DNA of 64,000 bases from Nitzschia sp. pyKryTriq1 (taxonomy: Eukaryota; Bacillariophyta; Bacillariophyceae; Bacillariales; Bacillariaceae): the NCBI GenBank assembly GCA_956465555.1, contig OY101130.1, forward strand, positions 434,001 through 498,000. The letters are read 5' to 3'. Below are positions 13,591-56,793 of the stretch, piece after piece. Positions within the stretch are counted from its first letter, which is position 1. The number at the start of each line of letters is the position of its first letter. The notes beneath the pieces are model-generated. The model was not told the DNA's origin. It saw nothing but the letters and a program-made list of their open reading frames with translations, and searched no databases. The position numbers and the translations under genes are program-made.

Positions 13591-16091
13591 CTAAGTCTCA
13601 TGAAAAAATATCATGCCCCCTTGTCGCCCATGGTTGCTGACCGTTCCAAATTGCTTGTTTCTCCTTGACAGCGGTTTCAATTTCCCCTTCTGATATCTTT
13701 CGATGTACCCCGCAACCATTTCCCTCCCGCGTCTACTCCATTCTTCTCGGTTATTTTCGGCGTAGTTGAGGTACTCATCACCCGACACCCCGAAGACACC
13801 GCATTCCTTCAGTCTCTTCGCGAGCGGAATGATGTAGAAATCAAAGAAGCCAAGCTCACCATCATACCATCCTTCCGAAGGATCTTTAGACACCCTTCCA
13901 TTTTCAAAGGCCTGGTAGCATTCCTGGAAGAACTTTTCGTTCCAGTGTGTGTAAATCTGCCAATGCTGCATGGTGTGTGAAACATCTGATGACTGGATAA
14001 AGTATTCAACAACAACGGTGGCCCGGCGATTTGTCATTTCATTGCAAGGTTTTGTCTCGTCTCCACATTCGACGTTGAACGCCAATTCCCATCGCTTCTT
14101 TCTCAATTGGCCAAGCTCTTTATCCATGACATCAGTAGCCAAGACAACGTTGACAAGAAGTTTGCGGAAGCTTTCACGCTCTTCCTGGGTGGTGTAGATG
14201 CACCGTCTTAGATCTTCGTAGCTTGGTTCCATGAGCAAGTCCCATGCGAGATCCAACGAGTTCTGCTCCGAGACACTCTTATCCCTGTACGCTTTTGCCA
14301 CGCCTTGACCTTCTTCCACCAATGTCGCATTGCTAACACCTGGATGATCAACATCATGGATCAAAGCTGACAGGATCACAGAGAACTGGATCATTGCATT
14401 GGAGGTGATGCCAAACGTAAAATCATTGAGCACTTCAGGAGCAGCCTTTGGCGTATAGCTCATACTCTGGTAGCAAATTTGATCAGGAGTTACCACGCGG
14501 GAGAGGAGTTTTGTGACTGATTGTGTGACGTGTGATGCATGCTGGAAATTGTGGAAGGGTTTACTGTCACGATACATCGATGCGATGGTGGCAACATAAT
14601 TCGTCAGCTGGTCGATTACTTTCTCTTCCAGGAAAACGGACGTTTCCGCATCTCTAAGATCGACGGCATCATTTTGTGTCATGGTGATGACTTCTTCGAC
14701 TTAATCCAAGACAATACTATCTGGTTTGGGCGGACGAATCTGCAACTTGCGCCAAGAGTCAAGGTCCAGAATCTGTCGTCCTCTCCTTCCTGCGATGAGC
14801 TTCTTCAATGGTTGAGAAAGGTTTTCAACATTCCACAGGACAAGACGCTGGGTAAGAGCGTCCTCACGCGAAGGCATTTCTTGTGAAACTGGGGCCTGGT
14901 CTGCGGAATTCGATTCCGACATGAAGGTCACGGCACTATCCACTCTCATTGATCCAGAAAGGCTACCATTGCTTTTCGTAGCCTCGGAATCGGATCCCTG
15001 GACGAACCAGAAAGTTTGCAGCTCGCCTTTTCCTTTCGCAAAAACTTTTGTCCCACGAGGCTTGATCCAATGTTCTTTGCCTCCTTTCACAATCAGCTCA
15101 GCTGTCTCCTTAGATAGTTGAATGCGATTCTTCATACCTGTGCTTTCCATACGGGCAGCAGTATTGACGGTATCTCCAAAGAGTTGAAATCGAGACTTCT
15201 CCCCTCTCAATACACCGGCAGTAACCGGGCCACTGATCGTGCAACGAAAATGGGTTCACGTTAGTTCGGCGAATTCTTGGGATTCTACATGGGTCGCGGA
15301 AGCTACTTACCTGTGCAGTCCAAAACGCATCTTCAAATCTGAAGTTCCTGGTCCGAGGCTCGTTTCTAGCTGGAATACCAACTTATTCATCGTTACCATG
15401 CACTTGTGTGCAAACCGGGCCACCACCTCAGCATGGTCTGGTCGTGGATTCGGGAGTCCAGCTACGGCCACGTACGAGTCCCCAATGGTTTCGACCTTGA
15501 ATACCTTCATTTTTCTTGCAATTTTGTCGAACGCGTTATACACGGTCTCGAGCAACAAAAACACCTGTGATGGTTCGCGGATAGAGGACCAAGCCGTGAA
15601 ACCTGCTAAATCGCCAAACATGACCGTCGTCTCAGGAAAGAGATCAGCAATGGGCTTCGAGCTTTGTGATGGTTGTCCATAGGGATTGGTTCCCATCCTT
15701 TTGTCCAGATCCTGCACTTCTTGCTCTTCGAGGAGACGGTCTCTCACGTTGGCAGGGAAGAGAGAGTTGATGATGGCACTGGACTTGTTGGCTGAAATCA
15801 TGACCATGGTCTGGCGTTTCTCAACGAAGAAATCGTAGATGCCAAAGACGGCTAGCGCGACCAACAAAACACCTGCCACAGCAATCGTGTAGGCTCGTGG
15901 ACTGTTGTCAGTGTGGTCCTCTTCGAATACTTCTGTTGGATACACACTCAAGTTGAACCCAAGTTGCGTAAACCTTCGATGCTAGAAGCAAATTCACTCG
16001 ATTTCACATAGTAATCGTACTCCGGATCGTGAAGATCGTTCGGACCCAAGTAATCGACCCGGGGACCGTTGATCTCGAAGGAAAACTGTTG
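13591..16091 (-). pseudogene. Receptor-type guanylate cyclase - cyclic nucleotide phosphodiesterase fusion, 5'-truncated and broken
   Basis: The layout is that of diatom receptor cyclase-PDE proteins. Remaining ectodomain end (16091 to about 15950): FEINGPRVDYLGPNDLHDPE. Membrane segment: YTIAVAGVLLVALAVFGIYD. Class III cyclase: FGDLAGFTAWSS, VETIGDSYVAVAG, then a 78-bp intron (15310-15233), then LFGDTVNTAARMES. PDE: HNFQHASHV, HDVDHPGVSNA, SDVSHTMQHW. The Glu of VETIGD favours GTP. Three lesions are visible. Most of the ectodomain and the start are missing. The frame shifts by one base between the ectodomain remnant and SVYPTEVF (about 15950-15990). An in-frame TAA (14703-14701) lies between cyclase and PDE; the PDE frame continues unchanged six codons before its first ATG. 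Catalytic residues of both domains remain, so decay looks recent. The alternative is two separate short proteins, or assembly error. Confidence 0.75.
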
Positions 16092-30171: not shown

Positions 30172-31102
30172 GGGACCTTCGGGAATTCGCTAAAAATGGC
30201 GAACTCGTTCGACCTCCGACCGTGTCCTTTCTCCCCGAACCGACGACTCATTGGAGCTTTTCCTGACGTGTTTCGGGTCTTTACGGAGAACGGGTCAGCC
30301 GCGGTCGAACGAGTTCAACTTATTGATAGAATGCGCGGTAAAAGAAGCGTTTTGGTATTGTATCAATTTTTCAACGTACCAGCGCATCGCTAAAAGTTCA
30401 ACAAAGTTTAAACGCGGTTAACCGCGGTCAACCGCGGTTAACCGCACGGTCAACCGCGGTTAACCGCGGTCAACCGCGGTCAACCGCGTTTGAACTTGCG
30501 CTCCACCCTTAGAACAAGTTTCACGCAGTATCATGTTAATCTCTCTCTTCGACACAATAAAAGCAACCGACAACAAAGCTCATGGCACATTATGTTTCAC
30601 TTCAAGTAGTACTAGTAGTACTAGCTCAGCTACTAGTAGTAGTGGCAGCTAGTACTGGAATTGTACTTAGTACTAGTAGTACTACTAGTAGTAGCTGCTA
30701 CTCTAGTAGTAGTGGCAGTTAGTACTGGTACTGTAGTAGCACTGGCAGTGGTGTTAGTAGCGCTACTACCGGTAGTACTTTATCGGCGGTCGTACTACTC
30801 GTACCTTGACGGTCATCGTCGTGCGCAAGTTCAACCGCGGTTAACCGCGCGGTTAACCGCGTTTAAACTTTGTTGAACTTTTAGCGATGCGCTGGTACGT
30901 TGAAAAATTGATACAATACCAAAACGCTTCTTTTACCGCGCATTCTATCAATAAGTTGAACTCGTTCGACCGCGGCTGACCCTTTCTCCGTAAAGACCCG
31001 AAACACGTCAGGAAAAGCTCCAATGAGTCGTCGGTTCGGGGAGAAAGGACACGGTCGGAGGTCGAACGAGTTCGCCATTTTTAGCGAATTCCCGAAGGTC
31101 CC
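30172..31102. mobile_element. 931-bp foldback element with about 250-bp inverted arms
   Basis: The left arm starts GGGACCTTCGGGAATTCGC at 30172. The right arm ends with its reverse complement at 31102. The arms match almost base for base for about 250 bp; one visible difference is GAGAACGGG versus GAGAAAGGG. Each arm then runs into tandem CGCGGTTAAC/CGCGGTCAAC palindromic units (30413-30490 and 30835-30870). The centre (30605-30790) is TAGTACTAG-type self-complementary DNA. A 68-codon frame is repeated on opposite strands only because of the inverted arms; no transposase is present. I could not see a clear target-site duplication (flanks CCACTCCA and AGACAGTC). This fits a non-autonomous foldback or MITE-type element. 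Confidence 0.8.
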
Positions 31103-32051
31103 AGACAGTCCAATTGATTGACTCAATGGACTCTTAGTAGTCTTTTCTACCCGAGGTCCCTTCCCTCTCTAGCGACTACGAGTAGTAGAAGAATTGGACC
31201 ATTGGCTCACCAAGAGACACTTTATGCAGTGTTCTTGATAAGCCTTATTCCAATTTTCAATAAGCCCCAGAACAATCCTGCTTGCACACAGGATAACTAG
31301 CTACAGTTCGTACTTCGTTCTACCACTACTGTGGTGCAGTAGGCCCTACAGGTACCTGGTACCACGTTGTTAAAAAGTAAGAGAAGGAAGTGCCACATTG
31401 TTTTGGGGGCCATCTGCGCCTTCTTCAAAGGAAGCAGAACATGCAGGGGTCATCATCGATCTGTTCTTTTCAAAGAAACTTCCACCGATGACCGCAACAG
31501 TACCTGGTACCGTACGAAGAAGTTCCGAAGAAGTGGAGTTAGCGGGAGGCTATGACCCATCCGGGCATTAGAATATTTTTGTTCTTCATCACGCACGAAC
31601 CTTAAGTAGACCCATCACGTGAATCAAGGTGCGCACATAAAGGTGGTTCGCAGCACCAGTACGTACGTACCGGTAGTCGGGTAGGGTCTACTAGTAGTAT
31701 GTGCCGGTACGGCAGGAACACAAGCTCAAAAGGAGCTTGACGTCGGATGTTCTTCTCCATATTTTTCGTTGGGCCTTTTTGACATTTAGGGTGTCCGGGG
31801 ATCCAAGAGAACTTTTTTGTTTCCCTTCTAAAACGTTGTTTTACTTTCTCGAGATTCCCGAGATCCCCGATGTCCCCGGCTGCCTTGACACATTCATCGT
31901 TTCGCCACACCCCAGCATAGATGACCAGATGGTGTCTTTTTATGGCCGCAAGCAGCAGCTTTTGTCGTCCGTCGAACGAAAAAAAGATCACAACTTCGAC
32001 AACTGGTCATTTCTGCAAATCAAGCATCTGCGAACAACTCCTATCGACACC
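31103..32051. other. Intergenic, 949 bp, upstream of the globin gene
   Basis: No gene supported. Contains GGTACCTGGTACC/CGTACGTACCGGTA palindromic runs (31349-31363, 31500-31515, 31660-31675). The stretch from about 31700 is an open plus-strand frame that ends inside the first globin intron and is probably 5' untranslated sequence. Confidence 0.4.
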
Positions 32052-34357
32052 ATGCCAAAAGTAAGTGTGTTATCAACGTTCAAAGTGAATGCCAAGCTTA
32101 GTTTCCTCTCACCATGTACTCTGGGAATCGTTATCTCGTCAACTGCAGCTTGAACTGTCCGTCGAAAAATCGAAGCTGGTCATAATTGACTGGGAAAAGG
32201 TCAAGGCGCTTGATGACTATGAAGGGACCAGCGGAAAGATCCTCTTTCAGCATCTCTTTGAAAAATGCCCTGAAGCTAAGCCACTTTTCGGGTTTTCGCT
32301 CTCGGCAAATCCTCGTTCTGAATACCTCCTCAAGAGTAAAAGATTTGCTCGCCATTCCAAGTTTCTCATCAAGATGGTCAACAAAACGGTTGACATGCTT
32401 GGTGCCGAGACGACCAGTGATGACGAGCATGGTCGCGGACAAAGACTCACTGACGTTTTGACCGAACTTGGACGAAAGCACGTCGCTTATGGCGTCAGGC
32501 CCGAGTACTTTCCCTTCATGACTGAAAGTTTGTTGGAAATGCTCAAAGAAACCATCGGAAATCCTGAGGAAGAAGCTTGGAAAGATGTCTTCAACTTTCT
32601 GATCGTTCAAATGACAGCTGGTTACACCCGTATCCTAAAGGGAACAGCTGCAGACAAGGACAAGGGCATCTGTATTGCTGCGTGGGACCGGCTTTCCCAG
32701 CTCCCCGAATACAAGGAAAAGGGCGGAGTCGTTCTCTTTCAACAGTGAGTCGTCGTCGAGGTGCAGTCACAATTCTGTTTGGGTATATTTGCTCTCTTTG
32801 ATCAAAACTCAACTTTTTCTCTGTCTTTTGCAGTCTTTTTACCATCTGCCCTGAAACCAAGCCCTTGTTTGGTTTCCCCATTGATATTGATCCTAATTCG
32901 AAGCACCTTCTCGAAAGTAAGCGATTCGCTCTTCACTCCACATTTTTGATGGAAATGTTGGAAAAGACGATTGGAATGCTGGGTCTAGAAGACAGAGTTT
33001 TGACGAAGGAGCTGATTGAATTGGGTCAAAGGCATGTTGCCTTCGGTGTCAAGGGAGAGTACTTTCCCTTCATGACCAAATCCCTCATTCACACGCTCAA
33101 GGAACTACTGGGGGATAACTTTTCGAAAGAAGACGAGTCGGCCTTTGACATTGTCATGGCCATGTTGATCGCTGACATGGTCCGTGGTCAACGTACCGTG
33201 GACAAGGATCTTGCGGGGTACAAGAAAGAAATCGTGACCAACAGTTGGGCGAAACTTAAGAAGATCCCTGACTACCAGAAAGAAGGAGGCATTCTCTTGT
33301 TTCAACAGTGAGTCTCGTCGTCTGTTTGTTTTTCTCTGCTGCAATTCCGTTCTCACCCTCGTCAATCTTGCCAATCAGTCTATTTGAGCTCTGCCCAGAA
33401 TCCAAACTCTTGTTTGGCTTTCCGGTAAATATCGACCCGAAATCGGATTCACTCTTGACCAATAAGCGTTTCCTCGGTCATGCATCGTTTTTGCTGGGCA
33501 TGATTGAAAAGACCGTTGATATCCTAGGAGAAGACGATGACCATCTTGAGAAAACCCTGATTGAGCTGGGCAGGAAGCATATGACTTATGGTGTCAAGCC
33601 AGCGTACTTCCCATTCATGACCCAAGCCATCATCAAGATGTTGCAGGAAAAGCTCGGCAGCGACTTTTCGGAAGAAGATCGAAAAGCCTGGAGAGATATC
33701 TTGGCTCTATTGATTGCTGATATTATCAAAGGAGAGAGGACGCTTGATATGGGACTTGCGTCTACCAACAAGAACATCACCAGCAAGAACTGGGAAACGC
33801 TTTCGGCGATTCCAGATTATGACGAAGTTGCCGGTCTCGCTGTATTTGAAAAGTACGTAGATATCGCGTGCGGCGTGATCTTTCGCTTCGCATCTGTTTT
33901 CCGGATCTAACCCTTGCTTTTACCCTTGCTTTATGACTCTTGTTTTGCTTTCATCAGGTTGTTTGAGATTTGCCCAGAATCCAAGCCACTTTTCGGATTC
34001 AAGCTGGACTTCGACAATAGGGAAATTCGTATGAGTAAGAGAGTCTTGGTCCATGCGACGTTCATCATTGAGATGGTCGAGAAGGCTTTGCAAATGCTTG
34101 GAAAGGACGATGCTGAGCTCGCTGAGTTTTTGGAAAATCTTGGTCGAAAGCACATCGCTTACAAGGTTACACCTCAGCACATGCCCTTTATGGCGGATTC
34201 CATCGTACATATGCTCAAAGAGACGATTGGAAAGGACGGCAAGTTCTCCAAGGAAGACGAACAAGCCTGGACGATGGTTCTTGCCGCGTTGGTTGCGAAC
34301 ATGTCCAAAGCTCAACGAGAAATGGAAATGATTGAGCTCTCGAAAACTTTGGAGTAA
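32052..34357 (+). CDS. Four-domain globin (tandem neuroglobin-like domains), five exons
   Basis: Exons 32052-32060, 32149-32744, 32834-33307, 33379-33852 and 33958-34357 give about 650 residues; introns are 88, 89, 71 and 105 bp, all GT-AG. Each domain has a Trp in helix A (IDWEKVK, AAWDRL, NSWAKL, KNWETL), a C-helix Pro with CD1 Phe (CPEAKPLFGF, CPETKPLFGF, CPESKLLFGF, CPESKPLFGF), a distal-region His (FARHSKF, FALHSTF, FLGHASF, VLVHATF) and the proximal F8 His (LGRKH, LGQRH, LGRKH, LGRKH). LGRKHxAxGV strongly recalls neuroglobin. All four haem pockets therefore look functional. No signal peptide, so it is probably cytosolic. The three inter-domain introns are phase 2, six residues before the C-helix Pro, the classical B12.2 site. 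Role could be O2 storage, NO dioxygenation or sensing; not decidable here. Confidence 0.88.
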
Positions 34358-35036: not shown

Positions 35037-35079
35037 GGGACACCCGGCGAAAAGAAATTTTGTCAGCCGTTGAGAATTA

Positions 35080-35339
35080 CCCCTTAGGCGTCAAAAGCGA
35101 ATTGCGAATTTTGCTATGATCGCCAAAGCAATTAAATCCAAAAAGGGCAACAAATAAAAAATTGCTATTATCGCCAAAGCAATTAAATGCAAAAAGGGCA
35201 ATAAATAAAAAGTTGCCATTATTGCCAAAGCAATTAAATGCAAAAATAGCAATAAATAAAAAGTTGCCATTAGTGCCAAAGCAATTAAATGCAAAAATGG
35301 CAATTTTAGCAATTATTGCCCTTCCGAGCGGTTGAGGGG
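35080..35339 (+). repeat. 260-bp tandem-repeat element, copy A
   Basis: Starts CCCCTTA and ends TTGAGGGG. Inside are about four units of 55-58 bp built on GCCAAAGCAATTAAATGC, AAAAAGGGCAATAAAT and AAAAAGTTGCCATT. The subterminal AATTGCGAATTTTGC and GGCAATTTTAGCAATT are roughly inverted to each other. Same order and orientation as copy B at 38004-38262. No coding potential. MITE-like. Confidence 0.75.
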
Positions 35340-35392
35340 TGGTGTCACCACGTGCGTCATGGTCACACGTTTTCTTCTTTCAAAAATCAAAA

Positions 35393-37036
35393 ATGACACT
35401 GACTACCAGTCGTCGTCACCGCAGTCACCACCACCTGCTGGGTCTCCTTCTATTGGCATCCACTGTTTCTTCGTCGGATGCCTTTGTGGGTCCTTCCAAC
35501 ACTCGAGGAGTGGCTGTTCTTCCCAGTAAGAATAATAACAACAACAACAAGAAGAAATCAAACATCGTCGTCGTGGGTGGGCGGCCCATCCCGTCTGTCG
35601 CTCGCTTCCAACCAAACAACGCCATGTCCCGGCTCGACGATCAAGATCGACCGCGCCGACGAGACCGTTTTCAACGTGGCATGTAAGTTAGTGGCTGCTG
35701 CAATGACAATGATGAGAATGAGAAGTCACAGTCATATTGTCTTGTTGGATTGATTGATTGATCTCACTATAATTTTCGTTATCATTGTCATTTCTCTCAG
35801 TCTCTGCAAGGTCGGATTTTCGAGTCCCCGAAGAGCCTCCCAGCGCAAGGCATTGGAGCCTCTTCAAAATAAAAAAGAAGGACGACAACGAAGAAGAAAA
35901 AGAGGATTCTTCTAAATTTCCGTCGCTGTTACCTTACTTTTCCAAACCGGCGTGGGTCGAACCCTTGTCGCAAAAGGTGGAAGCCCTCTCGACACGCGTC
36001 GACGAAATTGTCACACAGCAGGTCTGGGAAAAAATCCCTTCCAATATCCGTCAGGCCCTGACCCAGATTTGGGAAACCGTCGTCGGATGGTTTCCCGCCT
36101 TGCGGTTGGCGGTCCTGAGTTTTGCGACGGGTGCCGTCTTGACCTTGGCAGCCATTTTAGTGCCCGTATATTCCAGCGTTGAGCGAGCCGGTGACACTCT
36201 TTGAAACCATTCTTGCGGATCTCGAAATGGGGTATGTGGATCCGGTGGATACCAACAAGTTGTTTGAAACTGGGATCAGCGCCATGTTGCGATCTTTGGA
36301 TCCTTATACCGAATTTGAAGCGCGAGAAGAAGCGCAGCAAATGAATGAGGGCATCATGGGAAAATATGGTGGCGTCGGATTGGTAATTGCAGGAGTCACA
36401 CCGAAAGATGTGGCGGCCATGAAGAGTATCGCACCGACGACGACGGCGAATCCATCGCCAGCAGATGCAAGTGTGGAAGGTAGCAAACTGTTGCCCAAGG
36501 ATGCCATTGAAGATAGTGCTCGACTACAGGATGGAGACGATGTATCCAGCAGCACTGTTTCCATGGATCCCGATGACGAAGAAGCGGCAATGAGTCTCCA
36601 AGCACGCAAGGAACAAATCAAAGCCTTTGAAAAAGCCAAGGCGAAAGGGATTCGCGTGGTCAATGCCTTTGAAGGATACGCCTTTGATTATGGTATGCGT
36701 GTTGGGGATCGATTGCGGGCCGTCAATGACTTGGAGGTCACTCCGGAAACTTCTGTCGAAGATGTGCGAAATGTATTGCGAGGAGAGCCTGGTAGTCTGG
36801 TCACCATTCATTTTGAAAGAGAAGGCGTGGAGGGTATCCAAGCTGTAACCATGCCTCGACGAGTCGTTCAGCTTCGAGATGTCAAATTGACTACCTTTCT
36901 GGGAAATCCTGCCGATGGTATTGGATACATTTCGCTTTCGGGTTTTGCTGCCAATGCGGGCGCTGAAGTCCGACAAGCGATTCTAGCTCTGGAACAAGCC
37001 GATGTTGTTGCGACTCGTCATTGGTTCGGATGCTAA
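35393..37036 (+). pseudogene. Truncated, frameshifted C-terminal processing peptidase (S41 family), plastid-type
   Basis: Exon 1 (35393-35681) encodes a diatom plastid presequence (LLGLLLLASTVSSSDAF, then VGP). An intron of about 110-130 bp follows (GTAAGT donor at 35682; acceptor ambiguous near 35800-35810). The second block (to about 36190) has a membrane segment LAVLSFATGAVLTLAAILV. The frame then shifts: the peptidase continues one frame over as SEPVTLFETILADLE, SLDPYTEFEAREEAQQ, GKYGGVGLVI, a PDZ domain with GDRLRAVNDLEV, and GIGYISLSGFAANAG. The sequence stops being peptidase-like after AILALEQA at about 37000, so the catalytic Ser/Lys half is absent. Normal family members act on photosystem II D1 precursor or other lumenal proteins. 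Truncation plus frame change make this a pseudogene. Confidence 0.75.
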
Positions 37037-37189
37037 AATCCGGTTGTTGTTTGTTGTTGTTTCTGACATCAGCGGTACTGGTACCGTATTACCTGGACTT
37101 GTAGCGTTGTTCGTCTCCCAGTCAAAGCGAAAATTCATCATTTCCAATACCACTTTTGCTACGGTCGTACGCCAGCATCTATCCCCGGC

Positions 37190-37773
37190 TGGAGCCTGAG
37201 TATCAAAATCTTCGCAAGTGCATCTTTGCAACCAAGGCCGACATGGACTTGTTCCGCAAGTTGGTAGTCAATTGTGTCATCGCGACAGATATCTTTGACA
37301 AGGACCTCGGTCAATTGCGCAAATCGCGATGGGAGAAGGCTTTTGCAATCGAGAATAGCAGCAGCCAGTCCGAATTTGATATCAATCGCAAGGCAACCAT
37401 TGTCATTGAGCATGTGATTCAAGCTTCAGATGTCGCTCACACAATGCAGCATTGGCATATCTACCAGCGATGGAACCAACGTCTTTTCAATGAAATGTGC
37501 CAAGCCTTTCAAGACGGAAGAACCGAGACCGACCCCTCCTTGGGCTGGTACAATGGCGAATTGTGGTTCTTTGATAACTACGTCATTCCGTTGTCCAAGA
37601 AATTGAAGGACTGCGGAGTTTTTGGGGTCTCGAGTGATGAATATCTTTCCTATGCTCTGGAAAATCGCAAGGAATGGGAACGAAAGGGGGAATCCATCGT
37701 CCAGGCGATGGTGGGGCAATATTTTGGCCATTCGCCAGAACTGCCCGTGTTGGAGCTTGACGGGGAGCCATAA
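37190..37773 (+). pseudogene. C-terminal half of a cyclic nucleotide phosphodiesterase
   Basis: Open frame starting at about YQNLRKCIFATKAD and running through NCVIATDIFDKDLGQLRKSR, then ASDVAHTMQHWHIYQRWN, GWYNGELWFFDNYVIPL and a normal C-terminus. It aligns by eye with the same half of the PDE in the cyclase-PDE relic at 13591-14682 (LATDVMDKELGQLRKKRW). It lacks the HNFxHA and HDxxHPG metal-binding motifs and any start, so it cannot be an active PDE. It begins about 190 bp after the peptidase sequence breaks off, joined head to tail on the same strand. Confidence 0.8.
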
Positions 37774-38003
37774 TTTGGCCTTGTTCTGAAGAAAAGTGAA
37801 ATCTCTGGTGGGGGTATGTTGATAGTAGATACTGTCATCGTTTGCATCAGTTCTCTGGTTTGCATCTCCCCTCTACTAGCTATACGGTAGTAGAGATGGT
37901 TTCACTGCGCGTAGTTTTTAGTACCGGTAGAGTAGTCTCTGCCTTCTCCTCTGTGCCTGCTCTACTTCTCACCTCCGCCTACGAATCCTAGAACGAGGTC
38001 TGA

Positions 38004-38262
38004 CCCCTTAGCGTGGAAAGCGAATTGCGAATTTTGCTATTATTGCCAAAGCAATTAAATGCAAAAAGGGCAATAAATAAAAAGTTGCCATTATTGCCAA
38101 AGCAATTAAATGCAAAAAGGGCAACAAATAAAAAGTTGCCATTATTGCCGAAGCAATTAATTGCAAAAATAGCAATAAATAAAAAGTTGTCATTATCGCC
38201 AAAGCAATTAAATGCAAAAATGGCAATTTTAGCAATTATTGCCCTTCCGGCTTCTTAAGGGG
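38004..38262 (+). repeat. 260-bp tandem-repeat element, copy B
   Basis: Starts CCCCTTA and ends TTAAGGGG, 259 bp, same unit order as copy A with scattered substitutions (for example GCCGAAGCAATTAATTGC in one unit). Short terminal inverted repeat CCCCTTA. It lies immediately inside the right GCCGGGTGTCCC end. Confidence 0.75.
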
Positions 38263-38434
38263 CCGTAAAATTTTGACTGCCAAAATTTCTCAATGCCGGG
38301 TGTCCCAGGGGCCGTTCTATCGAAGCGTCGGTCCGGGCAATTTGTCGGTCGATGTCGGTCCGACCTACAAGTCACCCGGATATAGGGCCTTGGGGACCAA
38401 CATCTCGACCGACAATTGTCGGTCCCGGAGTTGA

Positions 38435-51604: not shown

Positions 51605-52624
51605 CTAATGGTAGCGAGCGAGTGGTCCACCTGGCTGAAGGCACACAGTGGGTGGATCAAAATCAAACAGGTAGTAGTCCATTGCGTAAAACCGGCACAA
51701 TTCTATCAGGGTCTGATCCCTGAGCAAATCTCTTCGGGCAGGAAACTTCTCTGCCTTGACCGTGTTCGAACTTGCGTCTCGACTTTTGACCTCATCGGAA
51801 AAGTCCTTGAAACCCGCAATTTCCAGGACTGGCCGTAACTCCGATAGATCACCCACCATTGTGACGTGATCGTCAATTGCTCGATTTTCGTTCATCATGT
51901 AATTGGCTTGCGGAAAGGCGTGAGTATGGCAAGACAAATCTGGTTCGGGGTACGTAAAATCTTTGACCTCGTTCAAGAATGCTCGTACCCGAAAGTCGTA
52001 TTCCCCATCCAGCCAGTTCAGTACTGTATGGTGGTGAATCGCTTGGTATTCGGTGGTGTTCTGGAGCTGTCGGAATCCACATTCGGCCCATGCCGACAAA
52101 AATCGATCAATGGGATCCCGAACAAAGGCGACCCATTCGCGTCGCTGAATTTCAGTGTTATTGAGATCCCATTGCATATCACCGGCCAGCGCCGCAACTG
52201 TAGTTCCGCCACACTTCCAGATATGCAAAAAGGAGAAGGTCTCCGAAACGATAATGGCCGCATATTGATCGAGTTTGGCTTGAAAACGAACCAAATAGTC
52301 AAACTTTGAGGTAATACGGTCCTTTCGCGCCAGGAATTTCCTTTGGTGAAGCAATGATCGTTCCGCTGTGTGAGCTTCCATTTGATCATAATACACATTG
52401 TTTTCGGGGGCTGGAAACTCCTCCTTCTCGATGGGCGGGTCCAGGATGGATGGAGTTCGGACAGACTCCACGCCTCTCAAGCTCGCCGAGAGTTCCTCCG
52501 ACACGAAAACCGTTGCTGTTTGAGAACTCAGGTATAAGACAGCAAACACTGACATGATCATATATGCGACGAGAGACGCTCTACCGATCCATCGACACAT
52601 TTCAAGGATTTGTATCGTCCTCAT
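51605..52624 (-). CDS. Carbohydrate sulfotransferase-like type II membrane protein, paralogue 1
   Basis: Predicted 339 residues. Membrane anchor at about 12-31 (SLVAYMIMSVFAVLYLS), then a stem and a catalytic domain. Sulfotransferase-2-type motifs: FLHIWKCGGTTV (about 133-144) as the 5'-phosphosulfate loop and FVRDPIDRFLSAWAECG (about 168-184) as the 3'-phosphate site of the PAPS donor. The C-terminus ends LIELCRFYAMDYYLFDF, PPTVCLQPGGPL. The fold class is well supported; acceptor unknown, presumably a Golgi glycan. The longest frame opens at TTG; ATGs at 52624 and 52600 are both possible. Shares the whole domain plan and the same tail with the gene at 53662-54627, so the pair arose by tandem duplication. 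Confidence 0.82.
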   Translation of the reverse strand: MRTIQILEMCRWIGRASLVAYMIMSVFAVLYLSSQTATVFVSEELSASLRGVESVRTPSILDPPIEKEEFPAPENNVYYDQMEAHTAERSLLHQRKFLARKDRITSKFDYLVRFQAKLDQYAAIIVSETFSFLHIWKCGGTTVAALAGDMQWDLNNTEIQRREWVAFVRDPIDRFLSAWAECGFRQLQNTTEYQAIHHHTVLNWLDGEYDFRVRAFLNEVKDFTYPEPDLSCHTHAFPQANYMMNENRAIDDHVTMVGDLSELRPVLEIAGFKDFSDEVKSRDASSNTVKAEKFPARRDLLRDQTLIELCRFYAMDYYLFDFDPPTVCLQPGGPLARYH

Positions 52625-53661
52625 AAAGGGAACTAAAATGGATATTTGGCTTTGTGGCTTCTGTCGGCCGGATTGAGGAGCTGCGCTGTACAAAGAATAA
52701 AATGCAGTGGTTGTGTCTCTGGTCGAAAAGGCGTTTCCCAGCGTGTGGTTTCAGTGGTGATCCGGTGATGATAGAGAGCCAAAGTTCAAGATGATGATAA
52801 CAATAAGAAATGGGAGAAGCAACCGCCAGAACCCACAAAGCGACACCTCAAAACTCAAAACCACAAATCACCCATGACCCATGCATGCAAATTCGAATTT
52901 ACTGTTGGGTTCTTCATTGCAACAAACCGACCGATCGGAGTACGTGGCACGATGCATGCGGCGCGTGGGGATGGCGCGGATTGTTATTTAGAGTATACGT
53001 AACCAAAGATATTCAATCTAAGCGCCCGCCGGCCAAAGCACACACATACTCTAATGTGTCTTTACAGCTTGTTTACAGTACCAGTACTGTACCTGGTACC
53101 AGGTACCATACCGATACGTCATCACACCATCCCGTCTATTTACCGGAAGACTACTATACCGTAGTACCAGAGTACCTTCGACCTACTTTCGTTTACAGTA
53201 GTAGTAGTACCTCTCTCTCTACTAGTAGAGAGAGCTCTCTAGTAGAGTAGTACAGAGAGTAGACTCTGTCTACTAGAGTAGAGAGAGGACCTGGTAGTTC
53301 TTGGTAGTAGGCCTATCTTGGGACTTGTACCTGTCCATACAGTACAGCGTGTTTCCCATTCTCCGTACTATTATCGCCCACCAATGCGGCGGACAGCATC
53401 CATCATTCTGCTGTCCTCGAACAGCACCAGCTATGGTACCAGCAACAGAGCGGATACTTGAATAATCCTCCTCAAAGCCATGCTGGGCTTGTTCTACGAA
53501 TGCGAAAAGAATATCTCACAGGAAGTGTGCCTCTATTTTAACAGTTAGCTTGTTGGGCCAGATGGCTCTAAATGAAAATTATGAATGCACGGTCTTATCG
53601 AACAAGTACCGTACTGTCTCAGTTGGTCAAGTCTGACCGATGATGATGTGTGTTATGAATT
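52625..53661. other. Intergenic, 1.04 kb, palindrome-rich
   Basis: Between the sulfotransferase paralogues. 53071-53120 is a run of CAGTACTG, GGTACC and CCTGGTACCAGG palindromes. 53195-53295 is dominated by CTCTCTACTAGTAGAGAG-type hairpins. No gene supported. Confidence 0.5.
53195..53295. repeat. Nested CTCTCTACTAGTAGAGAG palindromes
   Basis: An 18-bp perfect palindrome centred on ACTAGT near 53213-53232 is followed by GAGAGCTCTC and by GAGAGTAGACTCTGTCTACT-type imperfect hairpins. Confidence 0.7.
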
Positions 53662-54627
53662 TTATAAAGTTTTCTCGAGTGGACCCCCAGGTTGAACGCA
53701 GATTGCTGGAGGATTGAAATCAAACAAGAAGTAATCGATGGCATAGAACTCGCATAGCTCTAGGAGTGTACCGTCCGAAAGAAGTTGGGGCTTTGACTCG
53801 AAATAGTATTTCTTGACCAAGTCTTCAGTGGCATCTCGCCCGACCAAATCGCCTCGTCCCATTCGTAGTCCAGCAATTTGCATAATCTCTCTCATCTCTG
53901 AAAGGTCTCCCACCAATCGAACATGGTCATCAATGTGGCCAGTTGAATTTAGCATGAAGTTAGCCTGTGGGAATGCATGTGTATGACACGACCGAAGTGG
54001 CGGTAAATAATCCTTGACTTCTCTCAAGAAAGCACGGACTCGAAAGTCGTAATCTCCTTCGAGCCAAGTGAGCGCACTGTATCTCTCTTCTCCTTTGAAA
54101 TTGATTTCACCTTCGTATAGTCGCACTCCGCACTCTGCCCATGCTGACAGAAAACGCTCAATCGGATCGCGCAGTAAGGCAAGCCATTTCCTTTGTTGAA
54201 TTTCTTCGTTTCGGAGCGGTTGTTGCTGCTCTAACGTCAATTCTTCCACAGTGGTACCACCACACTTCCAGATATGAAGAAAAGAGTAATTCGCCGAAAC
54301 CTTGATCGCTGCGAATTTCTTCACGACAGGCTGGTATCGAGAGGCTGCGTCAAATATCTCTGGGATCTGTGCTTTCCTCGAGATGAATTTCCGGTAATGG
54401 TCCATTGAGCGAGTCGCCTCCAGGGCAGACATTTTGTCGAATATTACATCACCCACGACTTCAGGAAATTTCGACTGATATGCTGTCGATCCGTAGCGAA
54501 TACCTTGGACTCGTTCTGAGAGTAATTTAGATGAAATATCGTGGGCCTCAAAACTCAGGTGTAATACGAGTAGGCAAAAAATTATCAAACTTGCAACAAA
54601 GACCAGTCTCCTTGTCGAAGTCGACAT
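53662..54627 (-). CDS. Carbohydrate sulfotransferase-like type II membrane protein, paralogue 2
   Basis: Predicted 321 residues. Anchor at about 7-26 (LVFVASLIIFCLLVLHLSF). The catalytic domain carries FLHIWKCGGTTVEEL (about 117-131) and LLRDPIERFLSAWAECG (about 150-166), the two PAPS-binding motifs. WLEGDYDFRVRAFLREVKDY, then SCHTHAFPQANFMLN, match paralogue 1 closely. The end (LCEFYAIDYFLFDFNPPAIC then VQPGGPL) is also shared. ATG at 54627 is the frame start. Golgi location and a glycan acceptor are inferred. Differences from paralogue 1 are greatest in the stem (residues 30-110). Confidence 0.83.
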   Translation of the reverse strand: MSTSTRRLVFVASLIIFCLLVLHLSFEAHDISSKLLSERVQGIRYGSTAYQSKFPEVVGDVIFDKMSALEATRSMDHYRKFISRKAQIPEIFDAASRYQPVVKKFAAIKVSANYSFLHIWKCGGTTVEELTLEQQQPLRNEEIQQRKWLALLRDPIERFLSAWAECGVRLYEGEINFKGEERYSALTWLEGDYDFRVRAFLREVKDYLPPLRSCHTHAFPQANFMLNSTGHIDDHVRLVGDLSEMREIMQIAGLRMGRGDLVGRDATEDLVKKYYFESKPQLLSDGTLLELCEFYAIDYFLFDFNPPAICVQPGGPLEKTL

Positions 54628-56793
54628 GTTGGCGGATCTGAATCAATCGGTAGCGTGTGTACTTCAGAATCAACTATTGTAGGTTTCCTTGAATGATGGA
54701 GCGATTCTGATGATGGTTGTCAGTGGATCGTACAGCAGTTGAAAAAAAAAATTATTTCTTCTTGCGGGTTAGTTGTGGGCTCGCTCATCACACAGATCAC
54801 AGACAGTTTTAATCGAGAAAGCCAACTAATAATCAAAGCCACGCAAGCACGGCCCAAGCCACGAATTAGGCTACTATTCCCCGCGTAAACATTGGATCTT
54901 GCTTTGGATCGCCAGATCGATACCTTGTGTCGCCTGCCCTTCATGTGTGTGTCGAGCCGGCATGTAATTTCGCCGTTAGAGGAGAAGAATCGAGACATCG
55001 TTGATATTCATTTCTGTTTACGATACATCCCTTCAAAGCCGGGCGAGCCCTCTATTTTCAAACTTTCTCTCCCCCCGTCCCCGTGCGTCTGCCCATCCAC
55101 CGTGTGCATCCGATCTGCAAACGGCGACAGCAGGAAGTACTGTACCGGTACCGGTACCTTGCCGGTACTTGTACTGTATCCTAGCTGTTCTTTTTCGGCT
55201 TTTCCTTTTCTTTTCTCGGAACAATTGACCCCTGCTGTAATCTCTACTCGAATTCCGGAGTACGGAGTAGTCTACAAAGTAGAGAGACCTTAGCGGAGAG
55301 TGCTATTTGCCCCTTCTACCTTGCTTCTACTATGGAAGTTCGGTACAAGCATAGCATGAAGTTTCGATTCTTTACCTACCGGTAGACGACAGCGTTTGCT
55401 AAATTTGTTAGTCTAGTAGACGTATTGTTGCCTCGTTGAATACTCTGCGATTTCGTGCAACAAGTATGATTGATAGAAAAGAATTTATAAAATGGAATGC
55501 ATTCGATCATAAAGGGATTCTGTCATGACCTTAATGATGCCGCTTCCCCCTTGGCAGAGTGCGATCGAAGGCTTCTATCGAGGAGTCGCTAGTACTGTCT
55601 AATACCAGTATCGCTCGCCGAAGCCCCCGTCACGAATGGCAGAGTAGTATAACCGTCATGCCATGAACAGGGAAAAATCATCGAATACTCCACTTGCTGG
55701 CAGAATCTCGTGTGTTATCCGCGAGAAGCAAACCCTTCTTACTCAAGCTAGATGTAGTGGCTGTCCTACAAGGCGGGGCAAGAGTCGCATACTGTAGGAT
55801 CTTAGAGCGAAGATTAAATTATTGTCGGCGACCGTCATAGAGTGCGAGATAATTGAAATATCGTTTTCGGCTCTCCAAGATGAATATCGACTACGTGCGG
55901 CTTTTCGCGTGGGCCATCGATGATCTGCTGATTGCCGGCTTCGAAATACATCCTGCTTGGAGGTCGGCTCTGGTGGTGGTAGTGGAGATTATTATTACTT
56001 GGAATATTTATTTGATTTGATCGACCTGGGTTTGAAGTTGGATTAGGCACCGAACCCAGCTACAAACGAGCAAATGGGAATCGCGCGATGATAGAAGATG
56101 AATGATCTTAACTGTTGAAGTACCAGGTACTGTACTGGCACGGTACTTGTACTGGTGTGGCGATGATTGATGATTGATCACGGGTTTGCAATTGGATCAG
56201 CGATCATCGAGTGGGAACAAAGCGATGGCTGATGATGAATAGCCGGTGCGATACACACCGGTACCGGTACCGGTAGTCTCTACTCTCTGGTAGTAGAGTA
56301 GTGGCGAGTGGCGATAGGTGGCGATGATGAGATGTTCATGACCATGCTGATAATTATTCTACCGGTATCCATACGAGTAGACTATGGTACTGGAAAATCC
56401 GCCGTTATGCGTGATCGGAGTAGCCCCATCCGGGACAACTGGATCTGATGAAACACCGCTCGCCTTGCCACTTGCCGTTGGCGTGCCTGGCGTTCCCCGA
56501 GTGTAAAATCGCCGAAGTGAGATTCCCCAGCGAGCCGGCCGAATTATCAAAATTTACAGTTCGGTATTTATAAAAAACCAAAAGAAATAGCACCCTTATG
56601 GTTACTTAGAAAAGCGTTAGTTTAGCGAGAGCTCGCCGAGCCACCAAAATGGAAGTGGGGTCACGAAAATCAAATGGATCGCTGATCAAGCACCAAACAG
56701 GAAAATTCCACCATCGCAGATCTCATTTATGTCGAACTGCAATTTATAAAGCAGATTCTTCAAAGCCAACCAAGTTGAAACAACACTTCAGGG
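54628..56793. other. Large intergenic region, 2.17 kb
   Basis: No gene supported. GTACCGGTACCGGTACC-type clusters occur at 55137-55175 and 56253-56275, and CCAGGTACTGTACTGG at 56121-56136. A minus-strand 71-codon frame (56050-55835, with SNNNLHYHHQSRPPSRM) is not convincing. The last 200 bp are the probable promoter and 5' untranslated region of the downstream mosaic protein gene, with a TATAAA-like run at 56746-56751. Confidence 0.4.

Follow-up and report, generated by a model that had tools for sequence, protein, structure and literature searches.

According to a 2015 paper, only invertebrates and prokaryotes were known to have functional globins built of tandem domains, and the examples it names include the tetra-domain extracellular globin of Branchipolynoe scale worms, the nine-domain haemoglobin of Artemia, the multidomain globins of Daphnia and the two-domain globins of Barbatia and Ascaris (PMC4503718). 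Further cases are a Chlamydomonas protein whose two globin domains seem to be truncated 2/2 ones (PMC1457004), and the algal proteins EKX33177.1 and EKX39126.1 of Guillardia theta, with three globin domains each (PMC4101818); multidomain globins are thus not confined to animals. The locus described here is, with high probability, a genuine diatom gene for a four-domain globin (with four complete domains in one reading frame it belongs to the tandem globins, defined by at least two), and, judged from its predicted splicing, this one gene would make a 74-kDa intracellular polyglobin of four complete 3-on-3 haem domains. As a joint explanation, the gene, its duplication history and its inferred hexacoordinate O2/NO function form an account that we regard as moderately probable. 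No report of a four-domain tandem globin in a diatom was found in the literature searched, a search that subscription papers mostly lay outside.

The window (the whole 64,000-nt stretch of DNA analysed, bases 434001-498000 of contig 16) belongs to a 40.65-Mb genome in 20 contigs, in which eight silicon-transporter matches (PF03842, seven of them at E below 1e-261) bear out the diatom host. On the plus strand, at 32052-34357, five exons and four GT-AG introns are predicted to join in a single frame of 1953 nt that encodes 650 amino acids and a stop (about 74 kDa, pI 5.8, computed from the sequence); the splice model was derived from sequence alone. Exon 1 (32052..32060) holds the start codon and encodes no more than MPK, and is followed by an 88-nt phase 0 intron after codon 3 (32061..32148). 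By splice model, Pfam and domain alignment, exon 2 (32149..32744) encodes globin domain 1 (residues 7-170, 32158..32649, also delimited by the fold search of its model) together with helices A-B of domain 2. Introns 2 (32745..32833, 89 nt), 3 (33308..33378, 71 nt) and 4 (33853..33957, 105 nt) are modelled in phase 2 at position B12.2 of domains 2, 3 and 4, respectively, and delimit two symmetric phase 2-2 exons of 474 nt each: exon 3 (32834..33307) and exon 4 (33379..33852). Each begins in mid helix B of a domain (domain 2 in exon 3, domain 3 in exon 4), runs on to its helix H and ends with helices A-B of the domain that follows (domain 3 and domain 4, respectively). Exon 5 (33958..34357; splice model, Pfam and alignment) runs from mid helix B of domain 4 to the stop codon. 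In the domain alignment, domains 2, 3 and 4 occupy residues 171-328, 329-486 and 487-650. The start Met stands 17 residues ahead of the helix-A Trp, a distance about matched in the single-domain paralogues C5 and C13c, and an alternative in-frame ATG is present at 31929.

Since this genome does have adjoining single-domain globin genes (spaced by about 3.2 and 3.5 kb in two pairs of contig 13 and by about 2.6 kb in a pair of contig 9), the locus might be read as several such neighbours instead of one gene. We consider this extremely improbable and reject separate genes on the ground that the exons straddle the domain borders: at the end of each of exons 2-4 stand the first helices (A and most of B) of the following domain, in the same frame and uninterrupted by a stop codon, so that any of domains 2-4, taken as a separate gene, would start without them. 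No exon is devoted to any one of domains 2-4 or contains it complete, and the gaps between exons are introns of 71-105 nt. If retained, intron 2 or intron 3 would end translation at an in-frame TGA at its donor; a transcript break or alternative splicing within the gene is possible. Taken together, the frame, the introns and the straddling exons uphold the original prediction of one gene with four globin domains, and its span and five exons for about 650 residues are the same as in our splice model.

The spliced protein contains four Globin stretches (PF00042, E 1.9e-65, 219.1 bits against a cut-off of 22), the four genomic pieces match the same Pfam family singly (E 3e-13 to 2.4e-17), and, with a limit of E 0.001, a Pfam scan of the whole protein returned no family besides Globin. 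The domains (158-164 residues, pairwise identity 40.5-50.6%) follow head to tail with almost no linker and compare in length with this genome's single-domain globins, at 159 and 162 aa for the two that were measured. Domains 2-4 lack an insert of 9 residues that lies between helix E and helix F of domain 1. Helix-A Trp and CPE are common to all four, and the alignment with neuroglobin shows that each keeps Phe-B10, Pro-C2, Phe-CD1, His-E7 (residues 72, 236, 394 and 550) and His-F8 (residues 114, 269, 427 and 583). The helix-A Trp, CPE, CD1 Phe and two His claimed beforehand for the four domains are all in place, and what had been termed a 'distal-region His' is the distal His by alignment, since it falls on neuroglobin His-E7. 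A PF00042 score above the curated cut-off, with His-F8 and Phe-CD1 in 4/4 domains, assigns the protein to the 3-on-3 globins. A truncated globin is a poor fit because the protein matches PF00042 (the four PF01152 matches in the genome all lie away from this gene), and a flavohaemoglobin is ruled out, as no FAD/NAD reductase domain is fused (only Globin matches, E up to 0.001). Between domains, differences are lowest at second codon positions (0.25-0.31) and highest at third ones (0.56-0.71), a pattern that fits long purifying selection on the domains. A functionless, decaying gene, or a mere haem-storage protein, is very improbable, given that frame and pockets are intact in all four domains despite deep divergence.

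Searched against solved sequences, the four-domain profile matched neuroglobin best (1.4e-15) and class-1 non-symbiotic haemoglobin at 3.9e-15. Fold evidence covers domain 1 as a whole domain and the exon-4 unit. The model of domain 1 (built from 4 sequences; moderate, pLDDT 61.4) has its helices in globin order and finds neuroglobin as its best fold match (E 1.2e-5, TM 0.66/0.74), with neuroglobin and cytoglobin entries on top (TM by query length 0.61-0.72); for this domain the model thus displays the globin fold. Exons 3 and 4 each encode an androglobin-type order (helices C-H followed by A-B), while the whole protein has the normal A-H. The permuted order of androglobin is a 2012 assignment, and a 2024 paper relocates helix C (PMC11077535). 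Modelled alone (pLDDT 63.6, 3 sequences), the exon-4 unit gave no significant fold match against PDB (best E 0.29 over 78 columns, with an aligner that follows chain order), a result that, at the level of a predicted model, speaks against a single exon as a stand-alone globin.

The most informative feature of the gene, absent from the original prediction, is the repetition of its introns. Each of introns 2-4 interrupts, in phase 2, the same homologous codon, which precedes CD1 Phe by 12 residues; this codon corresponds to B12.2, since the neuroglobin alignment is free of gaps from the intron residue to CD1. Intron 1 of human beta-globin splits Arg30 (B12). In the accounts consulted, B12.2 is described as ancestral and common to many animals and even plants (PMC3485006, PMC7457136). 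Domain 1 of the polyglobin is without it. In 12 of the 14 other globin genes of the genome (15 genes in all, grouped by us from 22 genome matches) the first intron is best modelled as phase 2 at the B12.2 codon, with splice sites taken as GT-AG pairs in hand-set windows and scored against a profile of the polyglobin's own domains, a scoring that favours gap-free joins. In two divergent globin genes (C3:2636268 and C2:3746697) the match runs through one open frame. The recurrence in 12/14 genes suggests that the single-domain globin ancestor of the lineage most likely carried the B12.2 intron. In diatom globins we found no report of B12.2 introns, the same literature search applying.

In a tree of 18 domains from this one genome and one neuroglobin (the two divergent genes and the contig 14 gene, whose later intron had no model, being left out), the four polyglobin domains, D1-D4, formed one clade (support 99/99, also in re-run trees with the long-branched single-domain row C3b handled differently); their branches are long, and the tree gives no firm branching order for D2, D3 and D4. 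As a separate observation, the contig 14 globin gene (L018 4241-4968) yielded no GT-AG later intron or frame near helix F in the windows tried, and is possibly damaged or oddly spliced. The single clade indicates that D1-D4 arose by duplication inside one lineage, and, together with the length of exactly 474 nt common to exons 3 and 4, it substantiates the repeated duplication proposed at the outset; gene conversion could make the domains seem closer kin than they are. On this reading, a single-domain globin with a B12.2 intron would have fused in frame with a tandem copy, and the unit would then have multiplied, most simply via unequal crossing-over between B12.2 introns, each such event adding one symmetric 474-nt phase 2-2 exon. 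Domain 1 would have lost its B12.2 intron later or, alternatively, could have joined by another route.

Contig 12 of the same genome carries adjoining three-domain and two-domain globin genes (L009 1720-6393, minus strand; 648 and 470 aa as modelled), which resemble the polyglobin in their tandem globin domains and in the B12.2 intron of their first domain, but differ in their long low-complexity linkers, intronless later domains and separate grouping in the tree. As a group, their domains, among which C3b falls, received support of 78/61 with C3b inside, 78/89 without C3b and 100/100 without C3b and neuroglobin; in the last case the polyglobin and contig 12 sets adjoin at weak support (63/65). 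In AU tests, D1-D4 and the five contig 12 domains as one clade gave p 0.003 with C3b forced outside, p 0.21 with C3b inside and p 0.12 with C3b removed, and by the latter two values the joint clade is not rejected. Because each set groups with itself, the two genes seem, from these sequences, to have multiplied their domains separately; gene conversion within each gene could produce the same tree picture.

Skipping of exon 3 or of exon 4 would leave an open frame of 492 residues in each case, and skipping of both a frame of 334 residues. Since these exons are symmetric (phase 2-2) and their junctions fall on the same codon, the skipped forms would consist of complete domains only, and since the frame is kept, splicing could set the domain number. 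A wider proposal is speculative and, in our judgement, unlikely: the polyglobin would be a globin of adjustable valency, and the sharing of B12.2 by animals, plants and diatoms would mean that the last common eukaryotic ancestor had a globin gene with this intron, at which globins are multiplied to this day.

Globins with Phe-B10 and His-E7 tend to be hexacoordinate. The pockets of the polyglobin are like those of neuroglobin and class-1 plant globins, which suggests hexacoordinate haems: Phe-B10, His-E7 and His-F8 would provide four hexacoordinate (bis-His) haems with high O2/NO affinity, and the protein, whose N-terminus shows no signal-like sequence (by eye only), would act in the cytosol as a multivalent NO dioxygenase or an O2/redox buffer. 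With complete haem ligands and no visible signal-like N-terminus, the intracellular O2/NO binding originally proposed is plausible. For Phaeodactylum it is reported that two other globins rank with the strongest nitrate-sensitive genes, and conversion of NO to nitrate is proposed for them (PMC6779911), which makes NO dioxygenation a natural first guess for the polyglobin. Counting against such a function, the globin domains have no reductase domain fused to them, and a partner NO synthase had no match anywhere in the genome.

The same four intact pockets per chain might instead serve, as those of animal multidomain haemoglobins do, to store O2 at several sites, the protein being a reservoir and not an enzyme; animal multidomain examples are linked to hypoxia in the source cited above (PMC4503718), and the authors of the Seminavis robusta genome, where they discuss globin genes, tie them to benthic oxygen gradients (PMC7335047). 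This reading is possible, if rather unlikely: the polyglobin's Phe-B10 and His-E7 resemble those of hexacoordinate globins, and the want of a visible secretion signal also counts against it. Hexacoordinate globins are poor simple O2 stores, and a single cell requires little O2 transport. A gas or redox sensor, in which a Cys at C1, beside Pro-C2, couples thiol state to haem ligation, is a further reading. This Cys occurs in 4/4 polyglobin domains and in 0/14 other diatom domains aligned, and the protein has a single additional Cys (178). Nevertheless, no output domain was detected by Pfam in the 650-aa protein, and the C1 Cys, seen in one gene only, could be structural; we deem a sensor quite unlikely, and regard the C1 Cys of the four domains as a possible redox handle. 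An intracellular, O2/NO-reactive and probably hexacoordinate polyglobin is the most likely reading of the inferred function.

Just downstream of the globin gene, at 35037-38306 of the window, lies an element of about 3.27 kb with 314-bp end modules, which contain 51-bp arrays (35111-35304 and 38034-38227) and, by eye, short inverted termini. About 99% alike, these modules recur at C2:1376424-1380138, C16:194820-197756 and C4:3061507-3062771, two of the three copies having different insides and one a shortened inside. In the cargo of the downstream element there are a CtpA-like PDZ part, a PDEase_I fragment (37105-37773) and, by eye, a stretch resembling a presequence, and we consider the element a candidate gene-fragment-capturing transposon. 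The fragment is related to the PDEase_I at 13591-15981 (minus strand), where nucleotide cyclase and PDEase_I pieces follow one another in the manner of a cyclase-phosphodiesterase fusion. Upstream, the interval 30172-31102 (about 930 bp) is a foldback element whose two arms, 255 bp each, are 100% complementary; its arm has at least 45 genome matches, including both arms here, and a number of them form facing pairs. The adjoining open frames at 51605-52750 and 53662-54642 (minus strand), alike by eye and the second with a weak Sulfotransfer_2 match, are perhaps a tandem pair. Scans of the window for tRNA and Rfam families gave no matches.

Searches with the four-domain profile confirmed none of 75 pattern stretches in a collection of viral contigs (viral_contigs) and none of 69 in one of bacterial and archaeal contigs (genome_contigs); as these are not diatom collections, absence there is uninformative on other diatoms. 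Among described proteins, neuroglobin and class-1 plant haemoglobin are the best sequence matches, and neuroglobin is the best fold match. Phe-B10, His-E7 and His-F8 are shared with neuroglobin, as is the B12.2 intron of domains 2-4 (PMC3485006, where it is described for neuroglobin). Nevertheless, both relatives are single-domain proteins, whereas the polyglobin has four domains, and, unlike them, has Leu/Ile at E11 and Cys at C1. The polyglobin gene has neither of the introns E11.0 and G7.0 that vertebrate neuroglobin genes carry besides B12.2; of this intron set, only B12.2 is present, in domains 2-4.

Taken together, our models point to one unicellular alga whose tandem globins have two, three or four domains, the four-domain one keeping all haem ligands. 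The repeated B12.2 intron offers a clear record of chain growth and adds a stramenopile point to the question of intron age, and, as some diatoms can be cultured and edited, the need for four haem sites per chain is open to testing. In Seminavis robusta, globin-like families are reported, one of them pennate-restricted and expanded as tandem genes; the expansion described there is of genes, in contrast to the domains within one chain seen here (PMC7335047). The three-domain proteins of Guillardia theta differ further: as described, they exceed 1000 residues, have a putative cytochrome b5 N-terminal region and mostly carry a hydrophobic residue or Met at E7 (His in the diatom polyglobin), and the introns named for them lie at other sites, none at B12.2 (PMC4101818). 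The animal multidomain globins, on the other hand, arose like the polyglobin by duplication of complete domains in tandem within one chain, and that of Branchipolynoe also has four; they are mostly extracellular (Barbatia being intracellular), in contrast to the diatom polyglobin with no visible secretion signal, and its origin is presumably separate from theirs.
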